The notes under the pieces were generated by a model. The model saw only the letters and a list, made by a program, of their open reading frames with translations, was not told the DNA's origin and searched no databases. From assembly GCF_001476815.1 (NCBI RefSeq), contig NZ_LDSL01000126.1, positions 1 through 32,685 on the forward strand: a DNA stretch of 32,685 bases, read 5' to 3'. The stretch is from Pseudacidovorax intermedius. Its GTDB lineage: Bacteria; Pseudomonadota; Gammaproteobacteria; Burkholderiales; Burkholderiaceae_C. Position numbers and translations under genes: made by a program. Positions 2,218-3,994 of this stretch are shown here, one piece after another (the stretch's first letter is position 1; every line of letters starts with the position of its first letter).

Positions 2218-3994
2218 TCCGCGCTGGGCTGGTGCCAACGCCAGTGCCAGTGCCAGTGCCAGTGCCAGTGCCAGTGCCAGTGCCAGTGCCAGTGCCAGTG
2301 CCAGTGCCAGTGCCACTGCCACTGCCACTGCCACTGCCACTGCCACTGCCATTGCCACTGCTGGAGCCGGAGCCGGAACCGAAGCGGACGCATGTACAGG
2401 CGAGCCCCAGCCCCAGCCCGAACCCACCTTGCCCCCCGCGGACGCGCTCGGCTGGTGGGCCCTGCAGTTCACCCCGCACGTGGCCTGGCTGGAGGAAGCC
2501 CTGATGCTGGAAACCTCCGCCTGCGAGCGCCTCTGGGGTGGCCGCCGGTCGCTGATGCGGCAGATGGCGGCCACGGTGCCGCCCGGCACCCGGGTGCGCC
2601 AGGCCACCGGCGCCACCAGCCTGGAGGCGCTGGCGCGGCTGCGGCTGTATGCGGCCGGCCTGGCGCAGCCCGCCCGGCGGCCGGACGACCTGCCGCTGGA
2701 AACCCTGAGCGCCGCGGCGCCGCACCTGCAGGTGCTGGCCCGCCTGGGCTGCCGCACCTGGGGCGATGTCGCGGCGCTGCCCCGAGGGCCGATGGTGCGG
2801 CGCTTCGGCGCCCCGCTGCGCGAGGCGCTGGACGTCGCCTGGGGACTGCGGGCCGACGGGCTGCCCTGGCTGCAGTTGCCCGAGTCCTTCGACCAGCGGC
2901 TGGAGCTGCCCATGCTGGCCCAGTCCGCGCCCGAGCTGCTGTGGGCGGCCCAGCGGCTGCTGGGCGCGCTGCAGCTGTGGCTGCAGGCGCGCCAGCGCGG
3001 CGTGCTGGCCGTCGAGCTGTCGTGGACGCTGGACCTCAAGCGCCTGGACGGCGCCGAGTTGCCCCGCCTGCAGCAGCTGGTGGTGCGCACGGCCGAGCCC
3101 ACGCAGGACATGGCCCACCTGCGCCGGCTGCTGGCCGAGCGGCTGGCCCTCACCCAGCTGATCGCGCCGACCGGCTGGCTGCGGCTGAAGTCGATGGAGA
3201 CCGCCGACTGGCAGGGCCGCACCCGCAGCCTGCTGCCGCCGTCGCTGCCCGGCGGCCATGCCGGCCCGTGGGCGGAAGAGGGCCGGGAGGGCGAGCCCCT
3301 GCACCAATTGGTCGAAAAGCTCAGTGCCCGGCTCGGCCCGCGGCAGGTGCTGGCCGCCCGGCCGGTGCAGGACCACCGGCCCGAGGGCCGCCAGCAATGG
3401 CGCCCGGCGGCGGGGCTGGACCTGCTGGCCCTGGCTGCCAGCCGGGACGATGCGGCCCCAGGGGGCAAGGCGCGCCGGCGCGGCGGGCGCCGGGCGGAGG
3501 CGGGCCAGGACAGCGCGGCTGCGGAGGCCGGCACCCGGGCGCGCGAACAGGGGGGCGTCCCGCTCCCCGACCCGACGCCCCAGCCGCTTCGACAGCCGGC
3601 GTCCCGCCGCCCGGAGCCCACGCCGCCCACCGATCCGGCCCTGCCCGACATCGGTACCGGCCTGCTGCCGGCCTGGCTGCTGCGCGAGCCGCGTCCGCTG
3701 GCCACCCAGGATGGCGAGCCTTGCCACGGCGGGGCGCCGCTGCGCTGCCTGGCCGGCCCGCAGCGGCTGGAGACCGCCTGGTGGGAGGCCGGCCGGCCCG
3801 CCGCCCGCGACTACTACATCGCCCAGGACGCGCGCGGTGCGCTGTTCTGGATCTACCGCGAGCGCGCCACGCGCACGGGCACCGGCACCGGCACCGGCAC
3901 CGGCACCGGCACCGGCACCGGCACCGGCACCGGCACCGGCACCGGCAGCGATGAAGCGCCGGTGCGCTGGTTCCTGCAGGGCATCTATGCCTGA
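2186..3994 (+). CDS. imuB: ImuB, Y-family polymerase-like mutasome protein with two in-frame microsatellite tracts
   Basis: ImuB is a catalytically inactive Y-family (DinB-like) protein that links DnaE2 to the beta clamp during SOS mutagenesis. The 602-residue product begins MHWIALLW, the first palm strand. It resumes at [20 protein letters not shown] and [12 protein letters not shown], then a thumb/little-finger region with [10 protein letters not shown]. The acidic catalytic residues of active Y-family enzymes are not seen, as expected. Two oddities stand out. Residues 19-58 are (AS)12(AT)6AIAT, inserted between the first strand and the rest of the palm. Residues 565-586 are (GT)11, placed 16 residues before the C-terminal end. 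A variable Pro/Arg/Ala-rich stretch (about 420-490) precedes the C-terminal domain. I could not identify a clear clamp-binding motif. The ATG at 2186 was chosen because it encodes the typical ImuB N-terminus and overlaps imuA; a much earlier in-frame ATG at 1712 lies inside imuA and is rejected. Confidence 0.88.
2240..2359 (+). repeat. Hexanucleotide microsatellite in imuB 5' region: (GCCAGT)12(GCCACT)6 GCCATT GCCACT
   Basis: Twenty consecutive 6-base units run without a break from 2240 to 2359: twelve GCCAGT (2240-2311), six GCCACT (2312-2347), one GCCATT and one GCCACT. The units are identical at the third codon position, so this is a repeat at DNA level and not just a biased peptide. It encodes Ala-Ser then Ala-Thr dipeptides. 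Because the unit is 6 bases, gain or loss of units keeps the reading frame. Confidence 0.97.
3878..3943 (+). repeat. Hexanucleotide microsatellite in imuB 3' region: (GGCACC)11
   Basis: Eleven perfect GGCACC units encode (Gly-Thr)11 at ImuB residues 565-586. The tract ends with GGCAGC and then the conserved-looking tail [14 protein letters not shown]. As with the 5' tract, copy-number change would alter length without shifting frame. Confidence 0.97.

Follow-up and report, generated by a model that had tools for sequence, protein, structure and literature searches.

The ImuB family is catalytically dead. Many of its members have deletions of structural elements, with even the most reduced proteins retaining the little finger, the thumb and the ImuB-C domain, and in published models ImuB-C contacts the PHP domain of DnaE2 as well as ImuA (both from the portion of PMC12926913 at hand). 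Repeats with a 6-bp unit, (GCTGGC)3, are described for the mutL gene of Salmonella and E. coli, where slipped-strand mispairing alters the copy number (PMC2955026, in the passages available). As for imuB with tandem repeats or microsatellites, a literature search that covered few subscription journals, most being outside its coverage, found no paper on imuB repeats.

The locus presented here carries two hexanucleotide tracts within a single imuB gene. We consider it probable that these are near-neutral slippage expansions, tolerated in disordered linkers and loops of the non-catalytic ImuB scaffold in an array-rich genome.

The cassette and its two tracts

The window, i.e., the whole stretch of 32,685 nucleotides that was analysed, is contig C31 in full, from a genome of 5.55 Mb in 295 contigs. 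Its nearest named relatives are Pseudacidovorax, with 76-78% identity in the best segment. Three genes on the plus strand are adjacent, with imuB in the middle, as in an ImuA-ImuB-DnaE2 mutasome cassette: imuA (1381-2217), the first gene, which matches NCBIfam NF033429 ImuA_translesion with 208.7 bits against a cut-off of 150; imuB (2186-3994), which encodes a Y-family-like scaffold of 602 aa; and dnaE2 (3987-7346), which encodes an error-prone polymerase and matches NCBIfam NF004225 with 1375.9 bits against a cut-off of 939. The dnaE2 product matched DnaE families in the Pfam and NCBIfam profile searches. The 3' end of imuA shares 32 bases with the start of imuB, and the start codon we chose for dnaE2 gives an 8-base overlap with the end of imuB, from which we infer that the two genes may be translationally coupled.

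The earlier note had named the middle gene imuB from its letters. Its product matched no ImuB family in Pfam or NCBIfam, and the identification is borne out by the flanking imuA and dnaE2, by an alignment with 51 of the 80 relatives, and by AlphaFold and Foldseek, which together give a Y-family-like core followed by an ImuB-C domain (a name taken from PMC12926913). A degenerate candidate beta-clamp binding motif was seen by eye in the alignment. No LexA box of the form CTGT-N8-ACAG, with at most one mismatch, lies near imuA, and the window as a whole has three matches against a shuffle mean of 10.5, so that this result says nothing for or against SOS control.

The 5' tract (2240-2359, plus strand; residues 19-58) comprises 20 units, (GCCAGT)12(GCCACT)6 GCCATT GCCACT, which encode (AS)12(AT)6 AI AT, and has a TRF score of 190. 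The 3' tract (3878-3943, plus strand; residues 565-586) comprises 11 perfect GGCACC units followed by GGCAGC, encodes (GT)11, and has a TRF score of 143. These positions and counts agree with the earlier note, which also said correctly that both tracts keep the reading frame. It called both pure as well, which holds for the 3' tract; the 5' tract is compound, with AGT, ACT and ATT units. The pure runs in the two tracts are 76 nt and 70 nt, respectively. The longest period-6 run in imuB, 76 nt, far exceeds what chance would give: shuffling the gene's codons 2000 times never yielded more than 23 nt, and 1.5 Mb of sequence simulated with a fifth-order Markov model contained no array of at least 20 nt with a period of 1-12 and at least three units.

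Further along the plus strand of the window (12771-23303) lies a gene for a protein of 3510 aa, which combines 24 Big_9 stretches with cadherin-like domains and ends in RTX calcium-binding repeats; similar units of 321 bp occur in the gene at 13315-14849 (89% matches). This protein is perhaps a secreted adhesin.

Tract sites in ImuB and among relatives

An AlphaFold model of the window ImuB (52 sequences, mean pLDDT of 72) has a strand at residues 3-10, ahead of the 5' tract. A predicted helix (12-26) extends into the tract as confidence falls, residues 30-70 have a pLDDT below 50, and a helix at 85-93 comes after the tract. The model agrees with the earlier note in placing the 5' tract after the first palm strand and before the remainder of the domain. 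The 3' tract falls within a coil (residues 562-593) between strands 553-561 and 594-600, partly with a pLDDT below 50. On this model, the 5' tract would lie in a largely disordered linker, and the 3' tract in a loop before the last ImuB-C strand. Given the modelled contacts of ImuB-C with the DnaE2 PHP domain and ImuA (portion of PMC12926913 at hand), the 3' tract is the nearer of the two to the proposed interface. In the model of L009, a tract-free ImuB, the elements follow one another in almost the same order. In Foldseek, the best 50 of 277 matches are all Y-family polymerases, with a best E-value of 1.3e-9, and the listed matches have TM scores by target of 0.20-0.36, i.e., whole-chain superposition is poor.

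At the 5' site, some distant ImuBs have an AN-x-x-AR-x-x-GV-like segment, which we take to be the fingers. The main pattern for this motif matches L111 and L115, two of the more distant ImuBs of the order; L110 is matched by a separate pattern that had been fitted to it, and a similar segment was seen by eye in L109 and L114. The motif is present in 0 of the 81 linkers of the close set, window included, and the segment is likewise absent from the second ImuB copy of this genome and from the frames read in L104-L108, L117 and L118, while L112, L113 and L116 offered no frame from which to judge. Given that L104-L108, L117 and L118 do not have the segment, the loss of the fingers extends beyond this genus and this family. 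Pfam IMS, the complete palm-fingers region, matches L111 (E-value of 4.9e-10) and gave no match in the window ImuB or in L009. The missing palm-fingers region is a reported kind of ImuB reduction and was not taken as a bar to ImuB membership. Since the fingers-like segment is absent from the close set and present in L110, L111 and L115, the 5' tract occupies the site of an element that is missing here. Hence, the claim that most ImuBs have a short loop at this site is right for the close relatives, yet not for the fuller ImuBs of the order (e.g., L110, L111 and L115), where the fingers-like segment is found.

The tract sites were compared with those of 80 named relatives and 14 same-genus genomes, two overlapping sets from a sequence collection that may omit records of the nearest strains. 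None of the 80 named loci and none of the 14 same-genus loci has an array of at least three units of either tract kind, i.e., neither set has a tract kept at the locus, as would support a contingency locus. No other matching array was found in the 80 named loci. The N linker (2204-2449, plus strand; between MHWIAL and GWWAL), which stands where the fingers-like segment would be, is 82 aa long in the window, against 11-78 aa (median of 21.5) in the relatives, all 80 of which were measured. The C loop is 34 aa long, against 2-32 aa (median of 11) in the 77 of 80 relatives measured, the pattern having missed L079, L083 and L087. In each of the 14 same-genus genomes, the C loop measures 11 aa and the N linker falls within 20-50 aa, and the longest among the relatives are the N linker of L074 (78 aa) and the C loop of L073 (32 aa). 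The window's linker lengths are therefore extreme, though not far outside those of its relatives; its peculiarity is the pure arrays.

The dN/dS of the imuB core is 0.27-0.30 between the window and five Pseudacidovorax. Comparisons among the latter give 0.14-0.29, and the window values are at or slightly beyond the top of that range. These values indicate that imuB is under purifying selection and that its protein is kept.

Origin of the tracts

In the 5' tract, all alanines are encoded by GCC, all serines by AGT, all threonines by ACT, and the one isoleucine by ATT. In dnaE2 and the rest of imuB, AGT accounts for 1 of 60 serine codons and ACT for 0 of 61 threonine codons. With the ACT frequency floored at 1e-4, the codons of the 5' tract have a log10 probability of about -54 given the peptide, which argues strongly for an origin by slippage. 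In the 3' tract the corresponding value is -3.6, about 3 in 10,000, and codon uniformity is weak evidence for slippage, given GGC and ACC are already the commonest glycine and threonine codons here. The earlier note's step from identical wobble positions to slippage is thus very well founded for one tract and poorly for the other. At the 3' site, one in-frame GGCACC is present in three of the five Pseudacidovorax (L010, L012 and L013), and AGCACC in the other two (L009 and L011). A single GGCACC of this kind is likely the seed of the 3' tract. As for the GCCACT units in the second half of the 5' tract, one G-to-C change spread by slippage would be simpler than an inversion; the latter was rejected by inspection, given that GCCAGT repeats, when reverse-complemented, yield GGCACT units and not GCCACT.

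Long arrays are found elsewhere in this genome too and are no special mark of the genes for mutagenesis. In 99 sampled stretches from outside the window, 1.315 Mb in total, there are 16 pure arrays of at least 24 nt, distributed among 14 loci. They include arrays of period 6 with 14.7, 7.3 and 6.3 units, a 7-mer array of 11.3 units and a 4-mer array of 10.8 units. Several of these read AS, DA, HD, AP or GA in plausible frames of putative genes. Two relatives have three arrays in 0.8 Mb. Given the C118 stretch was fetched for its array, rates were compared without it; contig C9, which also surfaced in the array search, was kept as part of a consecutive series. The comparison yielded 15 arrays against 3 (P = 0.046), 13 loci against 3 (P = 0.087), 6 period-6 loci against 2 (P = 0.36), and 8 arrays of at least 36 nt against 0 (P = 0.022). 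The genome is array-rich, perhaps more so than the two relatives, with a borderline excess. About 0.06 close array pairs are expected per genome at the sampled rate, and 0.44 at the rate's upper bound, in a post hoc calculation; to find both tracts within a single gene of 1.8 kb is mildly unexpected. This counts against near-neutral slippage as the explanation, as do the borderline excess, linker lengths that are not far outside those of relatives, and the position of the window's dN/dS relative to the range among relatives.

Some of the sampled arrays deserve mention in their own right. A pure GCAG array of 10.8 units (L127:217-259, on G000:C9, near the contig start) is apparently just upstream of a possible minus-strand start codon, and its four-base unit could phase-vary. 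Two contigs start in arrays, each with one open frame encoding (DA)n (L155:40-127 on G000:C35 and L215:70-221 on G000:C55). CATGAC is repeated 7.3 times near a contig end (L175:3537-3580 on G000:C110), where it would encode HD repeats within an open frame rich in His. GGCAAGC is repeated 11.3 times in a pure seven-base array (L218:13346-13424 on G000:C58).

Loss of mismatch repair was rejected as an obvious cause of the arrays, given mutS and mutL are both present as open frames that score over the cut-offs. Six-base loops are poorly repaired by MutS.

In the explanation by near-neutral slippage, replication slippage would have produced dipeptide-repeat insertions, (AS/AT)20 and (GT)11, in two ImuB loops, both after the window lineage split from the relatives at hand. 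The 5' site would be the linker left where close relatives are without the fingers-like segment, and the 3' site the loop that joins the final two ImuB-C strands, with a tract probably grown from the single GGCACC still seen in relatives. Given ImuB is a non-catalytic scaffold, such loops would tolerate insertions. Each six-base slip would make the protein two residues longer or shorter at little cost, where we infer both the near-neutrality and the rate of length change. Since a six-base unit keeps the frame, no on/off switching by frame would result, only graded effects. What is observed is the presence of the tracts, their absence in the relatives at hand, the codon uniformity, the low-confidence unstructured sites, the purifying selection on the core and the other arrays.

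Alternative explanations and known systems

One alternative is that the 5' tract (codons 19-58) tunes translation, with an mRNA hairpin and rare codons through which unit number would set the output of ImuB and of the coupled DnaE2. The tract's RNA folds with -61 kcal/mol (z of -3.7), AGT and ACT are nearly absent elsewhere in imuB and dnaE2, and the 8-base overlap would link the two outputs. However, the tract is downstream of the initiation region, and the 3' tract RNA folds as well (z of -2.6), which suggests that repeats of this type may fold in any case. We regard this alternative as improbable.

An assembly error, in which the tracts exist but their unit numbers are wrong, or one of them is an assembler collapse or expansion, is no more probable. 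The assembly has 295 contigs, and five of the 14 array loci outside the window are at most 500 nt from a contig end, against 4.1% of the sampled sequence on contigs of at least 3 kb (P = 1.8e-4). Given the assembly seems to break at arrays, the exact unit counts are provisional. Yet both imuB tracts are contig-internal and in frame, variant units anchor the 5' tract, and the pure runs of 76 and 70 nt would be within the reach of usual reads.

The earlier note proposed a contingency-like tuning of mutagenesis capacity. In the form considered here, the imuB unit number would change linker and loop length, hence ImuA-ImuB-DnaE2 assembly, and would so set mutagenesis capacity heritably and reversibly. 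In its favor, the tracts sit in the mutagenesis scaffold, two in one gene, with units that keep the frame; ImuB-C contacts the DnaE2 PHP domain and ImuA in the published models (PMC12926913, portion at hand); and a mutability switch through changes in 6-bp repeats is reported for mutL (PMC2955026, passages available). The single-stranded minus strands of both tracts also fold better than shuffles (z of -9.5 for the 5' tract and -5.6 for the 3' tract), consistent with instability, although the plus strands fold no better than shuffles (z of -0.7 and -1.4). Against it, the tracts were not found in the relatives examined, there are long arrays elsewhere in the genome, and the 5' tract is placed where other ImuBs lost a segment. 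Moreover, the genome has a second imuA-imuB-dnaE2 cassette in the same gene order (L132:6337-11539 on G000:C292, minus strand). Its imuA matches NF033429 with 197 bits, and the product is 43% identical to that of the window imuA over 217 residues; its imuB-like gene encodes 436 aa, 44% identical to the window ImuB in the matched stretch, with no family match, and this protein is without tracts and very short in its N linker; its dnaE2 matches NF004225 with 1507 bits. A tuning of mutagenesis by unit number is thus not supported, and we consider it very unlikely. A second ImuB match was also observed in G001, G004, G006, G008 and G010.

In its fullest form, imuB would be a graded contingency locus whose two hypermutable length elements let inducible mutagenesis drift heritably and reversibly without ever going off, which seems to us very unlikely indeed. 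In that reading, one element would set the linker at the scar of the lost fingers (or translation), and the other the loop next to the barrel that binds DnaE2 and ImuA. Decay of imuB was rejected, given a core dN/dS of about 0.3, intact partner genes and an open frame.

If mutasome output did depend on unit number, the machinery that makes mutations would come with a built-in adjustable dial, and naturally occurring length variants could be used for a direct test of second-order selection on mutation rate. Under near-neutral slippage, the locus would illustrate clearly how slippage can occupy the site of a structural element that is missing. The tract sites also suggest which ImuB loops accept large insertions, which is useful for protein tagging.

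Among the relatives, the closest likeness is with imuB of Xylophilus. Long, low-complexity N linkers rich in A, P and S are found in Xylophilus ampelinus (L072), Xylophilus sp. Leaf220 (L035) and L074, and the C loop is longer in the first two. L072 also has a pure hexanucleotide array of 41 nt (6.8 units), with none in Leaf220. Unlike the tracts of the window, this array is in the middle linker, and no pure array is found at either terminal site. Given exact dipeptide runs of at least four units occur in the ImuB of only two of the 80 relatives (L028 and L072), a family-wide array enrichment in imuB was not claimed. The reduced ImuB proteins of PMC12926913 are alike in missing structural elements; the passages at hand make no mention of repeat tracts, whereas the window ImuB has a tract in the missing element's place.

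Outside the ImuB family, tolA of E. coli likewise has in-frame coding repeats, whose number differs between strains (PMC3477136, in the part available). That work reports variation between strains together with a stress phenotype, whereas the imuB tracts are known from one genome sequence. The mutL repeats are alike in being six-base, in-frame coding repeats in a gene that affects mutation rate. They differ in that mutL has three units and the loss of one makes MutL defective, i.e., a switch, whereas imuB has 20 and 11 units in scaffold loops. As far as the available passages of PMC2955026 go, mutL is a precedent for six-base coding repeats within a gene that belongs to the mutation machinery.
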